Source: Ferruginibacter lapsinanis (GTDB lineage Bacteria > Bacteroidota > Bacteroidia > Chitinophagales > Chitinophagaceae). Taken from it: a DNA stretch of 64,000 nt. Positions 136 to 5,814 of this stretch are shown here, piece by piece; within the stretch, counting starts at the first letter, position 1, and each line of letters begins with the position of its first letter. The stretch covers positions 806,001 through 870,000 of the forward strand of contig NZ_CP086063.1 of assembly GCF_020783315.1 (NCBI RefSeq). The letters are read 5' to 3'. The notes below the pieces were generated by a model. The model was not told the origin of the DNA, did not search any database, and saw only the letters and a program-made list of their open reading frames with translations. Made by a program: the position numbers and the translations under genes.

Positions 136-1584
136 TCACTCTCCACTAATCTCATCCCTCCTCTTCTTAAATTTCCTCGGATCCGTTCCATCCATCTGTA
201 CAATAGCCGGATAAAATCTCCCCAACACATCCACCAAAGTATTTTGACAGGCCATCACTTCATTAATATCCTTATAAGCAAAAGGCGCTTCATCCAAACC
301 ACCACCGATCAGTTTTACACCATGTGCTTTCAATTCATTCTTCAATGCTTCATGAGTAATATTAGCCAGTGCTTTGCTTCTGCTCATTTTTCTTCCTGCT
401 CCATGAGATGCAGAATTCAAAGAAGTTGGTTCACCTTTACCTTTTACAATAAAGCCCGGTGCAGTCATAGAGCCGGGAATAATTCCCAATACATCCTTGC
501 CTGCCGGTGTAGCACCTTTCCGATGTACGATCACTTCTTTGCCTTCATACATTTCTTTCCATGCAAAGTTGTGATGGTTCTCTACTCTTGCAATTGGTTT
601 CTCTCCAATCGCTTTTGCAATTTTTGCATGTATGGTATGATGACAAGCACTTGCATAGTCTCCCGCCAAATTCATAGCCAGCCAGTATTCCATACCTTCT
701 TCAGTATCCAGATCCAGCCATGCTAAATGTTTAGCTTCTTTTGGCAACACAGTTTTTTGCATCGCAATTTGTGTGTAGTAGTTGGCAATATTTGCGCCCA
801 ACCCTCTGCTACCACTATGGCTCAACAAGCCAACATAATTACCAACTGCCAATCCCATCGGATTGTCAGCATCAGTAATTTCCACTTTCCCAAACTCTAC
901 AAAATGGTTACCACTACCGGAAGAGCCTAACTGCTTCAACGCTTTATGTTGTAATGATTGCAAGAAATTTATTTCTGAAAATTCTTTTCTGTCCAGTACT
1001 TCATGTTCAGTTCTTTCAGCAAATTCTCTGCCTGCACCAAACAATGTATTGGCTACTAACTCTCTTTGAAAATAGGCTTCTTTCTTTTTCAAAGCATCCG
1101 GTTCAATCGCAAAAAAGCTCAAACACATTCTGCAACCAATGTCTACACCCACTGCATACGGAATGATGGCATTATCTGTTGCCAACACACCACCAATCGG
1201 TAAGCCATAGCCCTGGTGGGCATCAGGCATTAACGCACCGGCCACTGCCACTGGCAATTTCGCTGCGGTTTGCATTTGCAATAAAGCACCTTCTTCAATA
1301 TGTTTGGCACCGAATACATTGTATGCCACACTATTTTCATTCAACGGAATTTCTGTAGTTTCTTCTATTACAGGTTCAATTAATTTTTCTGCAATTTTAG
1401 ATAACACTTCATCCGCCAGATAATTTTCCGGAGTAGCTAATACATCTTTTAATATTTGCAATGCTTCTACTTCTGTATGATGTTTAAAGTGTGTGCACAT
1501 GGCATGCATGGCCACACTTACCACCGGCCCTTCTTCGTAGCCGATAGCCCGGATCTGTTTACCGGTTAATTTTAATTTGCTCAT
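136..1584 (-). CDS. rtcB: RNA-splicing ligase RtcB
   Basis: RtcB joins RNA ends carrying a 2',3'-cyclic phosphate or 3'-phosphate to 5'-OH ends, using GTP and Mn2+; it seals tRNA exons in archaea and metazoa and repairs broken RNA in bacteria. The 482-residue product carries the family motifs in order: GVDIGCRM near 146-153 with the metal-binding Asp and Cys, GSGNHFVE near 223, SHSGSRG near 255, ENHHNF near 335, HRKGATP near 354, IIPGSM near 368 and SASHGAGR near 391. The His in the last motif (about 394) corresponds to the guanylylated nucleophile. All expected catalytic residues are present, so the enzyme should be active. It is last in a minus-strand module with tRNA-like genes, an AAA ATPase and a slipin. 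No RtcA cyclase, archease or RtcR activator is visible nearby. Confidence 0.96.
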   Translation of the reverse strand: MSKLKLTGKQIRAIGYEEGPVVSVAMHAMCTHFKHHTEVEALQILKDVLATPENYLADEVLSKIAEKLIEPVIEETTEIPLNENSVAYNVFGAKHIEEGALLQMQTAAKLPVAVAGALMPDAHQGYGLPIGGVLATDNAIIPYAVGVDIGCRMCLSFFAIEPDALKKKEAYFQRELVANTLFGAGREFAERTEHEVLDRKEFSEINFLQSLQHKALKQLGSSGSGNHFVEFGKVEITDADNPMGLAVGNYVGLLSHSGSRGLGANIANYYTQIAMQKTVLPKEAKHLAWLDLDTEEGMEYWLAMNLAGDYASACHHTIHAKIAKAIGEKPIARVENHHNFAWKEMYEGKEVIVHRKGATPAGKDVLGIIPGSMTAPGFIVKGKGEPTSLNSASHGAGRKMSRSKALANITHEALKNELKAHGVKLIGGGLDEAPFAYKDINEVMACQNTLVDVLGRFYPAIVQMDGTDPRKFKKRRDEISGE

Positions 1585-1718
1585 TTTATTATATTTTATT
1601 TCGCAAAGTGCACAAAGTATACACAGAGCGAACCCGAAACCTTGTTCGATTATTTTTTTTTATTAATAGTTAGAAAATATACTCAACATGAATGCGGGTA
1701 TCCTTGTAATCCTTTAAT

Positions 1719-1864
1719 CCTGTAAATCCTGATGCAGACAATCCTTCGTCGTTGTTGGTCGCCTGACCAACAACATTCGCTCGGTTAAAAGCTCAATAAA
1801 GGTATGCCGTACAAGTGAGTGACACAACGATGTTCATTAGCAGCACTAGAGCTTGTTACAAAAG
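1719..1864 (+). repeat. Dispersed intergenic element Y, copy 1
   Basis: This stretch matches 11353-11465 in the same orientation. Shared blocks include TGTAAATCCTGATGCAGACA, AAAAGCTCAATAA, GGTATGCCG, ACAAGTGAGTGACACAACGA and a final TTACAAAA. This copy has about 30 extra nucleotides containing a perfect 10-bp inverted repeat (1751-1760 with 1765-1774, 4-nt loop) that the other copy lacks. No ORF spans both copies. The function is unknown. Confidence 0.7.
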
Positions 1865-1905
1865 TTATTACAGCTTTAAATTAACTAAGTTGTCGCTATT
1901 TATAG

Positions 1906-2160
1906 CACAAGTGTTTTCACTTTGAGCAAAATAGTTTTCACTTTGAGCATATTACTTTTCATTTTTTACAATGGCGTTTTCTCTTTTTGCACTAGCCATT
2001 TCACTATTTTCAATGTCTATTTCACTTTTGACACAGTATTTTTTACTTCTTATAAAATCTATTTCACTTTTTCTACCACCTGTTTCATTTCTCACACCAT
2101 ACACCTCATTTCTCAAATCATACATCTCACTTTTAGCACCGTCGCTCTCTCATTTTTCTC
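1906..2160. repeat. Degenerate 21-22 nt tandem repeat between slipin and rtcB
   Basis: On the plus strand the core TTTCACTTT recurs about every 21 nt. Two adjacent units are nearly identical (GTTTTCACTTTGAGCA begins at 1913 and 1934) and about ten diverged units follow to 2160. The minus strand has an open frame 1952-2125 (57 codons) in which the period gives heptads such as VKSEIDI, ENSEMAS and AKRENAI, with coiled-coil-like charge. The repeat continues past that stop in another frame and lies behind the slipin terminator. I therefore call it a repeat rather than a gene; a decayed coiled-coil ORF is the alternative. Confidence 0.6.
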
Positions 2161-2171
2161 CCTATATAAAC

Positions 2172-2206
2172 AAAAAACATCCGGCACCGGAAAATAGTAC
2201 CGGATG
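2172..2206 (-). terminator. Terminator of the slipin gene
   Basis: A hairpin with the outer stem CATCCGG/CCGGATG (2200-2206 with 2178-2184) lies 7 nt past the slipin stop and is followed on the minus strand by a run of six T. It suggests that rtcB, 600 nt further on, has its own promoter or is reached only by read-through. Confidence 0.7.
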
Positions 2207-2212
2207 TATATT

Positions 2213-3316
2213 TTATTTCTGCGGCACAAAGATCTGCTTCAACTGATCGATCAAAACGCCATTACCATTTACGCTGATGTTGCTGATCTTGTCGGCAATT
2301 TTTTCTACGTATTCCATCTCTTTCAATTTCCACAACATGGCATTGTCTTCCATCAATTTTGCAGTGTTCAACAAGCTACGGGTGCTGGCAGTTTCTTCTC
2401 TACGCATAATGCTGTTGGCCTGTGCGTTCTTTTCTGCTACCAACACTTTGTTCATGATGTCTTTTACATCGCCTGGCAAAATGATATCACGGATACCGAA
2501 ACCATTTACGCTAACACCCAATTCGTCAGCAGCAGTTTTTACTGCTTCCAAAATGAATGGAACGATGGAATCTTTTTTCTCCAACAATTCATCAAAAGCC
2601 AAACCTCCCACATACTCACGCAATGCCAACTGGAAAGCCATATACAACTGACGTTCGTAATCTTTGTTTTGCAACACAGCTTTTTCTACATCTGCTACTT
2701 TGTATTGGGCATAACCGTTGATACGCAATGCAGCTTTATCTTTGGTCAATATCTCCTGACCATTGATCTCTATTTGCTGCATACGGATATCGATCACACT
2801 CATTACGATAGAGATGTTATTCTTCCACCAGAAGTAAATACCTGCTGGCAAAATTTGTACATACTTTCCATCAATATACACCACGCCTTTTTCAAAGTTT
2901 GCCACATTGAACACACGTACGTATGGTGCTACCAAAGGGTTCTGCAACACAGCACGACTGATGTTTTCAGTGATCTCGATCTTGCCGATATCTGCTTTAA
3001 TGAAATCGAATTGATTGACTTCGCTCTTCCAATAAGCATAACGACCGGCAGTCAACACTTGCTTCAACAAACCGTTTTCATAACGCAACGCAATTTCATT
3101 GTCATTTACTTCAATCACCTGCAAAGCATTTGCCAATGCAGCATCTTGCAATAAAATGTTTAATTCTATTGGTGCAATGAAGGGTTTAGTTACATCATAT
3201 ATCATTGCGGTTTCTCCAAACCACAACCAATAGTTTCCTTCAGTCAACATTTTTTTGTACACGCTATTTTTAAATACCAAGGCTACCTGGTAGGCGTTGA
3301 TCATGATTTTTTTCAT
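2213..3316 (-). CDS. Slipin / band-7 (SPFH) family protein
   Basis: This 367-residue protein resembles the SPFH/band-7 (stomatin, prohibitin) family, which forms oligomeric rings and scaffolds. The recognisable part is the middle to C-terminal half: GVVYIDGKYVQILPAGIYFW near 143-162, ISIVMSVIDIRMQQIEINGQ near 167-186, the QLALREYVGG segment near 228, and the alpha-helical QANSIMRREETASTRSLLN tail near 300. No N-terminal transmembrane helix or signal peptide is visible, unlike classical stomatins, so it is probably cytosolic or peripheral. Slipin genes recur beside rtcB in other bacteria, which I recall from comparative genomics of RNA-repair operons. Here it lies between the permuted tRNA-like block and rtcB. 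Its role in RNA repair is unknown. Confidence 0.88.
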   Translation of the reverse strand: MKKIMINAYQVALVFKNSVYKKMLTEGNYWLWFGETAMIYDVTKPFIAPIELNILLQDAALANALQVIEVNDNEIALRYENGLLKQVLTAGRYAYWKSEVNQFDFIKADIGKIEITENISRAVLQNPLVAPYVRVFNVANFEKGVVYIDGKYVQILPAGIYFWWKNNISIVMSVIDIRMQQIEINGQEILTKDKAALRINGYAQYKVADVEKAVLQNKDYERQLYMAFQLALREYVGGLAFDELLEKKDSIVPFILEAVKTAADELGVSVNGFGIRDIILPGDVKDIMNKVLVAEKNAQANSIMRREETASTRSLLNTAKLMEDNAMLWKLKEMEYVEKIADKISNISVNGNGVLIDQLKQIFVPQK

Positions 3317-3602
3317 TTGTTCTATTTTAAAATTTTTTAATTTTTTTAAATAAAGCTTGGCTTGTTTGCCATCCGTTAATTACGGAAGCTGATTTCAAGG
3401 GTGTTCATTTATCCGTTTCGGCAATACCTCATTTACTACACGTGTGTAATAAAATATTATTGTTGAAATGAAAAAACATTCACACTGTTTACATCCGCTT
3501 GCTGGTTCTTTTCAGATTTTTGTATTACAACTTTAAAAAAACTGCAATGCAAAAGGCAAACAAGCTTTGCTTTACTTCTTTCCCTATTTTTTTAGAATAG
3601 TG
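3317..3602. other. Long leader of the slipin gene
   Basis: This 286-nt stretch has no convincing ORF. It holds an 18-nt motif (3431-3448) resembling one ahead of the AAA gene, and an 11-bp inverted repeat (3360-3370 with 3555-3565) that could pair across the leader. A small GCAAA/TTTGC hairpin lies at the upstream end. AAACAAGCTTT at 3558-3568 recurs as a direct repeat near 3876-3886 on the far side of the permuted RNA block. Confidence 0.5.
3431..3448 (-). promoter_or_regulatory. Shared 18-nt motif upstream of slipin
   Basis: ATTTACTACACGTGTGTA (plus strand) matches 5041-5058 upstream of the AAA gene at 14 of 18 positions. Each copy lies between an RNA block and the following protein gene, 115 and 54 nt before the start codons. 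It is a candidate binding site for a common regulator. Confidence 0.4.
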
Positions 3603-3607
3603 TTTTT

Positions 3608-3691
3608 CTACATTACCAATTGTAGCGTTCTTCCATTGAACTATCCATCGCTGTCGATGAAGCAGGAATCGAACCTGCACTGATTGTCTAC
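3608..3691 (-). tRNA. Permuted tRNA-like gene, unit I (Pro TGG or Thr GGT anticodon)
   Basis: On the minus strand the 3' part comes first: T-arm GCAGG-TTCGATT-CCTGC (3678-3662), then acceptor strand TTCATCG (3661-3655). After a 4-nt linker (3654-3651) follows the 5' part: acceptor strand CGATGGA (3650-3644), TA, D-arm GTTC-AATGGAA-GAAC (3641-3627), G26, and anticodon arm CTACA-ATTGGTAA-TGTAG (3625-3608). The two acceptor strands form seven pairs, one of them T-G. The 5' sequence ahead of this T-arm (GCGGTGA) does not pair with TTCATCG, so an ordinary gene order is excluded. The anticodon loop has 8 nt; it reads TGG, or GGT if an A is bulged. CCA is not encoded. A mature molecule would require joining in or near the variable region. 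Confidence 0.6.
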
Positions 3692-3761
3692 TGTTCTAAC
3701 CGCTGAACTATCACCGCTTAAGGTGAAAGGGATTCGAACCCTTGACCCGTAGGTTGTGGAG
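3688..3761 (-). tRNA. Permuted tRNA-like gene, unit J
   Basis: Minus-strand order is: anticodon-stem half CCTAC (3753-3749), 5-nt variable loop GGGTC, T-arm AAGGG-TTCGAAT-CCCTT (3743-3727), acceptor strand TCACCTT (3726-3720), AA linker, acceptor strand GCGGTGA (3717-3711), TA, D-arm GTTC-AGCGGTTA-GAAC (3708-3693), A26 and GTAGA. TCACC pairs with GGTGA across the linker, and CTAC pairs with GTAG, with an A-C mismatch at 31-39 like that in the Phe gene at 5085. The result is a cloverleaf open at the anticodon loop, as in permuted tRNA genes of red and green algae. GTAG at 3688-3691 is shared with unit I. The sequence preceding CCTAC (CTCCACAA, 3761-3754) could supply a CCA (Trp) anticodon. Confidence 0.55.
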
Positions 3762-3831
3762 GACACCGCTCTATTGCCGCAACAGCATACAGATGGTTAC
3801 TACGTCTGCACTATGGTGTTATTAAAAACAC
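3762..3831 (-). tRNA. Degenerate third permuted tRNA-like unit, K
   Basis: On the minus strand GTGCAGA (3811-3805) and TCTGTAT (3793-3787) can form seven pairs, two of them G-T, across an 11-nt linker. The second strand runs straight into a D-arm-like GCT...AGC structure with a GCGGC-containing loop (3786-3768). Upstream is a GTGTT/AACAC stem (3831-3816) with a 6-nt loop lacking the TTC motif where a T-arm would be expected. The layout follows units J and I, but positions 8-9 are missing and the T-arm is not canonical. It may be a decayed unit. Confidence 0.3.
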
Positions 3832-3835
3832 ACAT

Positions 3836-3905
3836 CCGGTTTGCTGATAACAGGCAAATGCCCTTCTTGTCGTAAAACAAGCTTTTGTGTTGATTGTCAT
3901 CAACA
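3836..3905 (-). other. Hairpin-rich spacer after the AAA gene
   Basis: On the minus strand this holds three stems: GTTGAT/ATCAAC with a 4-nt loop, CTTGT/ACAAG with a 6-nt loop, and TTTGC/GCAAA with a 9-nt loop. The last two in sequence resemble a D-arm and an anticodon arm, but no T-arm follows and the D-loop lacks GG. It could be the remains of a fourth tRNA-like unit or simply structured 3' UTR. Confidence 0.3.
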
Positions 3906-3910
3906 ATATT

Positions 3911-4987
3911 TTAATTCATTGCGACTTCATTTCTTCTAAAACCCATTACTTCCACTCTTTCTGGTTTATATTCCTTTTCATTTGGATTCGCAATTTCTGC
4001 TATGGTCATCGGCTTTGTAATGACATTACTAAACCCAAAATGATCACTCAACTTTTGCGCCTTATCAATTCCTAATTTTCCGAATTCATATTTTGCAATC
4101 AATCTTCCTTTACGCATCAATGCACTATCTACAAGTGTTAGCGAATTGTTGAATGTGCAGATCAACTGTACATTTAAAAAATCTGCCAATAGTCCATCCG
4201 AAATATTCAACAGGTTTGATACGGATGACCCGTTACTTAGTTTTCTATCCATGATGATGTTTTCAGCATCTTCAATTATCAACACTGTATTCGGGTTATC
4301 TATCAATAACTCAACAAACTCAGGATTCATAAGGTTATCAGCTACCGTTGGTGATAAGAATAACACACGCTTTTTTATTTTACCTATCAAATGACGCAGG
4401 TAAGTTGTTTTGCCTGTACCGGGTAATCCGTGTAGCAATACAATCCCTTTATCTTTTTTAGCATTGAGTCTTTTACGTATCACTTCGTCTGTTTCTTTAA
4501 AATCATCCTCATAAAAAAGATCCAGATCCAGTTTCGTTCTTTTGATCTCCATTGCCTTCAGATCGAGCCCTCTGCCATTACGTACAATAAGGTTTATCTC
4601 CAATGGCTGACGTCTTTGTTTTTCTTTAAATTGATTTACCAGGTCTGTCAGCTCCTGTACAAAAGCATCTTGCTTGCCATCGTGCAATATTTCGCAATAG
4701 TCATCATCAAATTCCAGTAAGCAATTATTTTTTAAAATGATCACTGTTTTATCGAACTGATATCTTTTCTTTTCTCTTTTATACCATCTGTACTGATGCA
4801 CATGAGAGATAAGTTCTCTGTTTTTTTCTTTAAATACGTCGAATGCTTTTTCCCCATCAATGTTGTTTACAAAACTTAAACTCGGCAGTTCGTTGAAACA
4901 ATACAGGTATAATATTTTCGTATCCAAAAAACGATCATCAAACACATTGTTTGCATTGATAACTTTCTGGTTAAATAAATTGTCCAT
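3911..4987 (-). CDS. AAA ATPase of the RtcB/tRNA module
   Basis: This 358-residue protein has an unrecognised N-terminal half followed by one AAA domain: Walker A GLPGTGKTTYL near 187-197, Walker B TVLIIEDAE near 235, sensor-1-like ICTFNNS near 277, and RKGRLIAKYEF near 292, which probably holds the arginine finger. The spacing and the GRLIAKYEF segment recall Bcs1-like AAA proteins, but there is no transmembrane helix. AAA proteins remodel protein or RNA-protein complexes; the substrate is not evident here. It is flanked on both sides by tRNA-like genes on the same strand, and an 18-nt motif shared with the slipin leader lies 54 nt before its start. I infer a role with RtcB and the slipin in handling these RNAs. 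Confidence 0.8.
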   Translation of the reverse strand: MDNLFNQKVINANNVFDDRFLDTKILYLYCFNELPSLSFVNNIDGEKAFDVFKEKNRELISHVHQYRWYKREKKRYQFDKTVIILKNNCLLEFDDDYCEILHDGKQDAFVQELTDLVNQFKEKQRRQPLEINLIVRNGRGLDLKAMEIKRTKLDLDLFYEDDFKETDEVIRKRLNAKKDKGIVLLHGLPGTGKTTYLRHLIGKIKKRVLFLSPTVADNLMNPEFVELLIDNPNTVLIIEDAENIIMDRKLSNGSSVSNLLNISDGLLADFLNVQLICTFNNSLTLVDSALMRKGRLIAKYEFGKLGIDKAQKLSDHFGFSNVITKPMTIAEIANPNEKEYKPERVEVMGFRRNEVAMN

Positions 4988-5040
4988 TTTATTTGTTTTT
5001 AATTTTAATTAATTATTCTTTCTTACACTTTGAATAACTA

Positions 5041-5058
5041 ATTCATTACACGAGTGAA
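5041..5058 (-). promoter_or_regulatory. Shared 18-nt motif upstream of the AAA gene
   Basis: ATTCATTACACGAGTGAA (plus strand) is the partner of the site at 3431-3448, with 14 of 18 identical positions around an ACACG core. The submotif ACGAGTGA recurs as AACGAGTGAG just before the stop of the small ORF at 5870. Confidence 0.4.
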
Positions 5059-5084
5059 CATATTTTTAATTTTTAGTTTTTTTG

Positions 5085-5158
5085 TGGTGCTCCAAGGAAT
5101 TGAACCTCGATCTCCGGGATTTCACTCCGGCGCATATATGCCATTCTGCCAAAGCACC
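5085..5158 (-). tRNA. tRNA-Phe (GAA)
   Basis: The cloverleaf has a 7-bp acceptor (GGTGCTT with GAGCACC, last pair T-G), a 3-bp D-stem, anticodon arm CCGGA-GTGAAAT-CCCGG, variable loop AGATC and T-arm CGAGG-TTCAATT-CCTTG, with discriminator A. The anticodon reads GAA after T33. The innermost anticodon-stem pair is an A-C mismatch. CCA is not encoded. It is the last gene of the array and lies close to the AAA gene on the same strand. Confidence 0.8.
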
Positions 5159-5170
5159 TTTTTGTTCCAG

Positions 5171-5242
5171 AGGATGAAGAAAGAGTCGAACTTTCAACAC
5201 TTGCCTTAACAGGGCAACGCTCTACCGTTGAGCTATTCATCC
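5171..5242 (-). tRNA. tRNA-Asn (GTT)
   Basis: All stems are complete: acceptor GGATGAA/TTCATCC, D-arm GCTC-AACGGTA-GAGC, anticodon arm TTGCC-CTGTTAA-GGCAA, T-arm GAAAG-TTCGACT-CTTTC. The anticodon is GTT. The discriminator reads T, where G is usual for Asn. CCA is not encoded. Confidence 0.9.
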
Positions 5243-5247
5243 TTATG

Positions 5248-5321
5248 TTGGCTCGGTGAGACTTGAACTCACAACTCCCGGATTAAAAGTCCGGTGCATC
5301 TACCAATTGAGCTACGAACCA
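5248..5321 (-). tRNA. tRNA-Lys (TTT) with a bulged D-stem
   Basis: Acceptor TGGTTCG/CGAGCCA, anticodon arm CCGGA-CTTTTAA-TCCGG, variable loop GAGTT, T-arm GTGAG-TTCAAGT-CTCAC and discriminator A are all present. The D-stem reads GCTC on one side and GATGC on the other. This is one nucleotide more than the standard GAGC and leaves a bulged T. The extra base is unusual for a functional tRNA. Confidence 0.8.
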
Positions 5322-5326
5322 GTCTG

Positions 5327-5399
5327 TGATGACTAAAGGACTTGAACCTTTAACCACTATCGTATCAGGATAGCACTCTGCCAATTGAGTTAAGTCATC
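5327..5399 (-). tRNA. tRNA-Ile (GAT)
   Basis: Acceptor GATGACT/AGTCATC, D-arm ACTC-AATTGGCA-GAGT, anticodon arm CTATC-CTGATAC-GATAG and T-arm AAAGG-TTCAAGT-CCTTT pair fully, with discriminator A. The anticodon is GAT. CCA is not encoded. Confidence 0.9.
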
Positions 5400-5403
5400 T
5401 CAG

Positions 5404-5475
5404 TAGCGGCTACAAGAATCGAACTTGTATTGATTGGTTTATGAGACCAAGGTGTTACCATTACACTAAACCGCA
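5404..5475 (-). tRNA. tRNA-Met-like (CAT)
   Basis: The acceptor TGCGGTT/AGCCGCT has a T-T mismatch at the first pair and one T-G wobble. The D-arm GTG-TAATGGTAA-CAC, anticodon arm TTGGT-CTCATAA-ACCAA and T-arm ACAAG-TTCGATT-CTTGT are intact. A mismatch at 1-72 is typical of bacterial initiator tRNA, but the anticodon stem lacks the three G-C pairs of initiators. CAT could mean elongator Met, or Ile if the first anticodon base is lysidine-modified. Confidence 0.8.
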
Positions 5476-5479
5476 ATAT

Positions 5480-5573
5480 GTGCGACTTTCAGATTTGAAC
5501 TGAAAACATTCCTCTTATGTTTACCTCTCAGAAAGGGAGGAAGAAGAACGTGTTGCCGTTACACCAAGCCGCA
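5480..5573 (-). tRNA. tRNA-like gene with an extended anticodon arm
   Basis: The acceptor TGCGGCT/AGTCGCA, D-arm GTG-TAACGGCAA-CAC, variable loop TGTT and T-arm TTCAG-TTCAAAT-CTGAA are normal for a class I tRNA. Between G26 and the variable loop there are 40 nt instead of 17. They fold as an 8-bp helix (TTCTTCTT with AAGAGGAA, one T-G), then a 4-bp helix (CCTC/GAGG) with a 9-nt loop and a 7-nt bulge (TAAACAT) on the 3' side. This looks like a tRNA with about 23 nt inserted in the anticodon loop, that is, an intron-like insertion. A Glu (TTC) reading with a long variable arm is possible but leaves 8 nt unpaired. Confidence 0.6.
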
Positions 5574-5585
5574 TTTTCTTTTTTG

Positions 5586-5658
5586 TATAGTAGGCAGGAT
5601 TCGAACCTGCAGCCTCTCCGGTCCAGGCGGAGTATCCAACCAATTGGAATGCTACTAT
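5586..5658 (-). tRNA. tRNA-Pro-like (TGG) with unusual positions 8 and 33
   Basis: The acceptor ATAGTAG/CTACTAT, anticodon arm CTCCG-CCTGGAC-CGGAG and T-arm GCAGG-TTCGAAT-CCTGC pair perfectly, with discriminator A. Base 8 is C instead of the near-universal T, base 33 is C instead of T, and the outer D-stem pair is T-T. These departures suggest a tRNA not used in ordinary translation, or one in decay. It is the first gene of the array. Confidence 0.7.
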
Positions 5659-5662
5659 ATGT

Positions 5663-5693
5663 TGCGTCCCTGCTGCAACTAACAGGGATCGCA
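5663..5693 (-). other. Stable hairpin at the head of the tRNA array
   Basis: On the minus strand TGCG-A-TCCCTG pairs with CAGGGACGCA: ten pairs with a single bulged A and a 10-nt loop. It lies 5 nt ahead of the first tRNA. No T-run follows on the minus strand, so it is not an obvious terminator. Its outer end resembles the acceptor ends of the neighbouring tRNAs. It may be a processing signal or a separate small RNA. Confidence 0.5.
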
Positions 5694-5814
5694 TTTTCCT
5701 CCTTCTGCAACTAATATTTTATTCTGCGTTTTATACGGTTGAACAAAGCATTTGCTATTGCTTGTATCAACCATATTGATATTAAAAATGTCATGTCAAT
5801 CTATTTTTATCCGG

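Follow-up and report, generated by a model that had tools for sequence, protein, structure and literature searches.

A conserved Bacteroidota module with a tRNA array, an RtcB ligase, a slipin and a doubly permuted tRNA-like RNA

The stretch of DNA analyzed here (hereafter the window) covers 64,000 nucleotides (nt) of the 3.46-Mb genome of Ferruginibacter lapsinanis (G000:C1:806001-870000) and carries, all on the minus strand and in order of transcription, a leader, an array of transfer RNA (tRNA) genes, an AAA ATPase gene, a permuted tRNA-like RNA, a slipin gene and the gene for the RNA ligase RtcB (Table 1). These parts recur together in other genomes, a co-occurrence on which a preliminary description of the locus had made its case depend, and they form a conserved module of the Bacteroidota, not a chance grouping. 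The same description had counted seven tRNA-like genes on one strand; these are six standard tRNAs and one tRNA-like element with a long anticodon arm, in the order Pro, long-arm tRNA-like, Met, Ile, Lys, Asn and Phe along transcription. The AAA protein, the band-7 protein and the active-looking RNA ligase that it named are present as well, recognized by PF00004, PF01145 and PF01139 and by catalytic motifs. Its "permuted tRNAs" are indeed permuted, as covariation makes clear, but they are not separate genes: they belong to a single structured RNA in which two circularly permuted cloverleaves stand in tandem, most often with a pseudoknot after them.

The R1 model of this RNA matches the window at 3608-3753 with 116.8 bits. 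In unit 1 the order of the strands is anticodon 3' strand, variable region, T arm, acceptor 3' strand, cap loop, acceptor 5' strand, D arm and anticodon 5' strand, so that the acceptor end of this tRNA shape is closed off and its opening lies in the anticodon loop. Unit 2 runs from T arm through acceptor 3' strand, cap, acceptor 5' strand and D arm to a closed anticodon hairpin. The pairing was read position by position at 29 loci, with partners swapped between loci as the control. The acceptor pairing fraction was 0.897 in unit 1 (0.607 swapped) and 0.960 in unit 2 (0.523 swapped), both tests being slightly biased in favour of pairing, since the parser maximises it; the anticodon stem of unit 1, where the test is fixed by geometry, gave 0.940 (0.572 swapped) and was fully paired at 27 of the 29 loci. 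The ordinary, non-permuted pairing of the unit 1 acceptor 5' strand with the unit 2 acceptor 3' strand stood at chance (0.540, against 0.535 swapped), and the reading of 3654-3716 as an ordinary tRNA, to which an RF00005 match pointed, was rejected on that ground. In an alignment of 27 sequences, double-sided changes are seen at 35 of 42 pairs, 91.9% of the cells are paired (67.6% when shuffled, about 37-47% with the partners slid) and the covariation score is 0.683 as against 0.225 for shuffles, these controls leaving phylogeny uncorrected. Residues of the tRNA tertiary fold are retained too, namely G15-C48, G18G19 and those of the T loop; in unit 1, C48 is kept at 25, A14-G15 at 26 and the D-loop GG at 27 of the 29 loci. 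A conserved 5' domain precedes the two units (20 relatives were aligned, and the flanks of 37 further loci compared), and the closing H-type pseudoknot scores at least 19 in 61 of 64 sequences (95%, against 26% when shuffled). None of the 4227 Rfam models exceeded its gathering score on this RNA except the tRNA model RF00005, whose match is weak and set in the register of a non-permuted tRNA, which is the wrong one here.

The RNA and the slipin gene go together. Of the 299 genomes searched in the order, 26 have an R1 match of 90 bits or more, and every one of them encodes the slipin, with the RNA upstream on the same strand. A search of 395 genomes of the phylum, in which R1 matches were counted only if a slipin adjoins, added 12 genomes from other families with true matches, directly upstream of slipin in 12 of 12, and tRNA arrays are present in 7-8 of these. 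Many R1 matches below about 70 bits turned out on re-reading to be ordinary tandem tRNAs and were discarded, as did those of four genomes in the phylum search (G641, G651, G647 and G639) at 85-98 bits. At 36 loci picked with slipin as bait, irrespective of AAA (L177-L212), the permuted RNA lies directly upstream of slipin with a strong score in 25 and a weaker one in 8-9 more, and nearby there are at least three same-strand tRNAs in 15 and an AAA gene in 8. Thirteen of the 36 also have, near slipin, a divergently transcribed WYL-domain regulator, a candidate stress sensor.

A second set, taken with the AAA protein as bait, comprises 80 loci from public genomes. Their recurrent order is tRNA array, (DUF458), AAA, RNA, slipin, RtcB, and the Band-7 gene, the ligase and the tRNA-like RNA adjoin one another at module loci. 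Among the AAA loci of at least 14 kb, 25 have both slipin and an array of at least three tRNAs, 5 slipin only, 6 the array only and 32 neither (Fisher p=2e-8, relatedness uncorrected). The RNA-repair setting proposed in the preliminary description finds good support in the neighbours in relatives: at the 80 loci, RtcB was found 51 times, the RNase-H-like DUF458 protein 40, slipin 33, RlaP 11 (PF10127, a family labelled "RNA repair pathway"; this nucleotidyltransferase is described in PMC7824862) and a WYL regulator 8. No RtcA or RtcR was seen among the recurrent neighbours; TROVE/Ro protein was absent from those scanned, with slipin in its place, no genome-wide search having been made. A protein of about 260 amino acids with no Pfam match adjoins the module at L083 (6638-7411) and at 12 other loci.

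Table 1. Parts of the module in the window, in order of transcription
Feature	Position	Strand	Basis
Array leader: conserved TTAGTTGCAGAAGGAGGAA, then a hairpin, with a T-run end in relatives (terminator-like)	5661..5714	-	About 20 loci
tRNA-Pro(UGG)	5586..5658	-	Infernal RF00005, 50.2 bits; no ARAGORN call; anticodon read off the fold
tRNA-like, long anticodon arm	5480..5573	-	Sequence reading and 11-locus alignment
tRNA-Met(CAU)	5404..5475	-	ARAGORN and Infernal
tRNA-Ile(GAU)	5327..5399	-	ARAGORN and Infernal
tRNA-Lys(UUU)	5248..5321	-	ARAGORN and Infernal
tRNA-Asn(GUU)	5171..5242	-	ARAGORN and Infernal
tRNA-Phe(GAA), anticodon loop with G32 and U38	5085..5158	-	ARAGORN and Infernal
AAA ATPase, 358 amino acids, BCS1-like	3911..4987	-	PF00004, E=1.7e-9
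5' domain of the permuted RNA: hairpins, motif GCAGACGYAGTARCTATCTGTATGCTG at about 3783-3810; boundary approximate	3754..3883	-	Alignment of 20 relatives and flanks of 37 further loci
Permuted tRNA unit 1, open in the anticodon loop	3687..3753	-	Covariation
Permuted tRNA unit 2, closed anticodon hairpin	3608..3678	-	Covariation
H-type pseudoknot, weak form or remnant	3576..3608	-	Clear in relatives, unclear in the window copy
Slipin (SPFH/Band-7), 367 amino acids	2213..3316	-	PF01145, 9.3e-30
Terminator-like hairpin between slipin and rtcB: 12 pairs and a T run	2177..2207	-	Consensus scan only
RtcB RNA ligase, 482 amino acids	136..1584	-	PF01139, 2e-83

Judged by its sequence, the RtcB ligase is intact, with all catalytic motifs present: GVDIGC, GNHFxE, HSGSRG, NHHNF and HGAGR are kept across 74 aligned sequences, and in alignment the protein of the window retains the catalytic motifs of P. 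horikoshii RtcB, including the Cys, His, Asp, Asn and Glu of the Mn/GTP site. It is the sole RtcB found in a search of the genome. Because a strong terminator-like hairpin (2207-2177) follows the slipin gene, rtcB may have a transcript separate from that of slipin. The slipin chain contains three SPFH-like repeats, with the SPFH domain at residues 142-308, and a sequence search of PDB relates it to the stomatin PH1511 (2.6e-19). The protein looks soluble; no transmembrane stretch that could serve as a stomatin-type membrane anchor was found in it, the top 19-residue hydropathy being 1.2. The closest solved structures to the AAA ATPase by PDB sequence search are Bcs1 and YjoB of B. subtilis, and a Foldseek search with its AlphaFold2 model (mean pLDDT 77.5) also points to BCS1/YjoB, the match to Bcs1 over the full length being poor (TM-scores of about 0.4, root-mean-square deviation of about 10 Å); no NCBIfam model names the protein. 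The AAA gene was considered as the anchor of the system and rejected: Chitinophaga loci have it with neither slipin nor array, and many slipin loci are without it, which makes it an accessory and not a core member. On a contig labelled Beijerinckiaceae (L080), probably a mis-binned Bacteroidota contig, the AAA and RtcB proteins are 62% and 56% identical to those of the window.

The array places many tRNA genes together, in addition to the housekeeping tRNAs. Across 47 arrays, 379 of 381 tRNAs are distinct within their own array, and the concordance of their order is 0.917 (0.62 when shuffled). The tRNAs keep the anticodon of their isotype and U33, and the discriminator bases follow isotype (His C73 in 28/28, Trp G73 in 9/9, Gly U73 in 8/9, Pro A73 in 17/17). 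Set against the housekeeping tRNAs, the reference being those of the window's own genome only, the anticodon loops often differ at positions flanking the anticodon, as in Asp (UUGUCUA vs CUGUCAC), Glu (CUUUCUA vs CUUUCAC) and Gln (CUUUGAC vs UUUUGAU). tRNA-Thr occurs in none of the 47 arrays, though housekeeping Thr tRNAs exist. tRNA-Ile(UAU) recurs in the arrays of 13 loci, alongside Ile(GAU) (for example L041 6362). The idea that the array is the sole source of tRNA-Ile(GAU) in the genome proved uninformative: a second copy was not found, but neither was 16S ribosomal RNA (rRNA) visible, and for that reason the rRNA operon, the usual carrier of Ile(GAU), is probably masked. Palindromes (CCCGATAGCTATCGGG and TCCGCC..GGCGGA) are inserted in the T, D or anticodon loop of array tRNAs of relatives, at about 6270 and 6905 in L031 and about 6810 and 7265 in L040.

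Directly upstream of the arrays, at about 20 loci including the window, L031 (5980), L040 (5333) and L065 (6220), lies a leader in which TGCAG..GGAGGAA precedes a covarying hairpin, in most cases with a T run at its end; the sequence of the stem drifts while its complementarity holds. It looks like an attenuator with a Shine-Dalgarno-like motif and no conserved start codon. The long-arm tRNA-like element, missed by both ARAGORN and Infernal, shows conservation and covariation in an alignment of 11 loci, in most of which it stands between His and Arg, with 96.7% of cells paired and double-sided changes at 15 of 30 pairs. Its anticodon arm consists of a lower stem, an inner hairpin (CCTYYC/GRRAGG) and a 3' bulge, with no evident anticodon. 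The interrupted tRNAs once suspected here did not materialize, in that none with a splice-like intron could be shown and the anticodon arm of this element holds a conserved hairpin that gives no hint of an intron.

The explanation favoured here, at a probability of about 0.48, is that the locus is a tRNA-damage or translation-stress island, combining backup tRNAs, resealing by RtcB, and a scaffold formed by slipin and a tRNA-mimicking RNA; the gene set probably keeps protein synthesis running when tRNAs are damaged. The leader and its terminator-like hairpin would hold transcription of the array back, to rise when translation fails. The array, to go by its conserved anticodons, U33, discriminators and one-of-each content, would be a backup set of chargeable tRNAs, and the altered anticodon loops (positions 32, 37 and 38) may make some of its members poor substrates for anticodon nucleases. 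From what is known of its family, RtcB would reseal tRNAs cut in the anticodon loop, with 2',3'-cyclic phosphate and 5'-OH ends, assisted perhaps in relatives by RlaP and DUF458. In its permuted cloverleaves the RNA displays two tRNA bodies, the first of which, with its acceptor sealed and its anticodon loop open, resembles a tRNA cut in that loop; with a ring of soluble slipin it might make up a scaffold that holds or senses tRNA, much as Ro/Rsr does with Y RNA. Where the BCS1-like AAA protein is present, it could conceivably remodel or load the slipin-RNA particle. A sharper version, which must be called doubtful, casts the RNA as a trans-acting guide or scaffold of a new class: as a double permuted mimic of an anticodon-nicked tRNA it would, with the soluble slipin ring, recruit RtcB to broken tRNAs, while the matched one-of-each set replaced those lost. 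On this version bacteria would possess a "tRNA emergency kit" with an RNA scaffold of its own.

Several observations weigh against the stress-island explanation. The copy in the window is reduced, with an array of 7, as against up to 16 members in relatives, and with a weak 3' pseudoknot, and the DUF458 gene, part of the module in relatives, sits apart in this genome (L213, G000:C1:572336-572746). The anticodon loops of Lys, Tyr and most Met array tRNAs are unchanged, and tRNA-Ile(UAU) is rare in bacteria and unusual for decoding. At the 36 slipin-bait loci RtcB is near slipin in only about one of two (19, with two of these proteins about 30% identical), so that the slipin and its RNA may function without RtcB in cis.

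Unlikely, though the best placed of the rivals, is a cis-acting role, in which the permuted RNA would be a leader that senses or mimics tRNA and controls slipin (and rtcB), with no scaffold involved. In favour of this are the position of the RNA, which precedes slipin on the shared strand and is often no more than a few hundred bases away, and its closing H-type pseudoknot, a fold common among regulatory elements; but its cloverleaves and 5' domain are far more elaborate than a simple sensor would require, its distance to the slipin start varies, and neither a slipin-specific terminator nor an element masking the Shine-Dalgarno sequence was identified. The decoy role raised in the preliminary description is harder to accept again. 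Array tRNAs and permuted RNA would soak up anticodon nucleases, with RtcB recycling the cut decoys, and it is true that the long-arm and permuted tRNA-likes cannot decode normally, that several array tRNAs of relatives bear hairpin inserts, and that 38 of 381 array tRNAs, as against 0 of 36 housekeeping ones, have a pyrimidine at position 37. A decoy would not need amino-acid identity, however, and because the array tRNAs keep isotype discriminator bases, U33 and one-of-each anticodons, along with their stems, it is for them a weaker fit; unit 1, moreover, is already open at the site where the nuclease would cut.

Far less credible is that proposal's companion, maturation, in which the permuted units would be tRNA genes on the model of those in Cyanidioschyzon or Thermofilum: their transcripts would be cut, joined into circles by RtcB and then opened at the acceptor end. 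The 3' half stands ahead of the 5' half and the acceptor strands pair over a short spacer, which is the order of a permuted tRNA gene (PMC3978253), and RtcB-type ligation would be a plausible joining step. A usable, conserved anticodon is nevertheless absent from the 29 loci: unit 1 has no anticodon loop at all, and that of unit 2 shows 22 distinct sequences. The cap loops are mostly 0-5 nt long (0-7 nt in unit 1, three loci being capless), and both units are fused to the conserved 5' domain and pseudoknot. Least probable of all is that the locus is a genomic relic, in which a tRNA cluster from an integrated phage or plasmid came to lie beside repair genes by chance: phages do carry tRNA clusters, and jumbo phages hold distant relatives of the AAA protein at 28-43% identity (records H3-H22, for example MK797984.1 258950-260377), but order, composition and synteny of the module are conserved across genera and families, the AAA gene of phage PA5oct is about 7 kb from its tRNA cluster, two other phage AAA loci have no annotated tRNA, RtcB or slipin, and a single scan of viral contigs for slipin gave no relative.

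If the stress-island explanation is right, two open problems are joined, namely the joint role of RtcB and slipin in bacteria and the upkeep of silent, redundant tRNA arrays in some bacteria. A bacterial RNA of permuted cloverleaves with an open anticodon loop would be a new way of mimicking damaged tRNA. The permuted RNA, deeply conserved, strongly covarying and outside Rfam, is open to cloning, probing and deletion.

SPFH/Band-7 RNA-repair operons with a "novel tRNA-like molecule" were reportedly described by Burroughs and Aravind in 2016, so that a system of this kind is already known. It would share with the module a Band-7 protein, an RNA ligase and a tRNA-like RNA in one neighbourhood, along with the RlaP nucleotidyltransferase seen in relatives. 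To the extent that this could be checked, several details are new: the double permutation, the closing pseudoknot, the long-arm tRNA-like element, the array leader and the linkage to a one-of-each array. The rsr-yrlBA-rtcBA operon of Salmonella, which is regulated by broken tRNAs, likewise combines a ring protein, a tRNA-like noncoding RNA and RtcB (PMC7790460); in the module, by contrast, slipin replaces the Ro/TROVE protein Rsr, and there are two permuted cloverleaves and a tRNA array. The permuted tRNA genes of red algae and Thermofilum share with the RNA the leading 3' half and the short spacer at the acceptor end, and their halves give rise to a single mature tRNA whose anticodon is usable (PMC3978253), whereas the RNA described here is bacterial, has no conserved anticodon and fuses two units in one structured molecule. 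In phages, changes in the anticodon loop let tRNAs evade anticodon nucleases; these too are extra tRNAs that keep the anticodon with neighbouring loop positions altered, sometimes beside RNA ligases (PMC10264068). The arrays here differ in belonging to a chromosomal bacterial module of conserved order.

The strongest outside support for the stress-island explanation comes from Anabaena, where TrcR represses a 26-gene tRNA array, rtcB, the slipin gene alr0740 and an AAA gene, all released on loss of TrcR (PMC10272220). The same array, rtcB and alr0740 were changed in a CvkR strain under erythromycin selection, which the authors thought could explain the effect (PMC9938897). Common to both systems is a large array, normally silent in Anabaena, that is found with rtcB, a slipin and an AAA gene and is there co-regulated with them under translational stress. 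In Anabaena the genes are unlinked, the array being on a plasmid and the others chromosomal, and are under TrcR control, while in the module they are clustered, with the permuted tRNA-like RNA between AAA and slipin.

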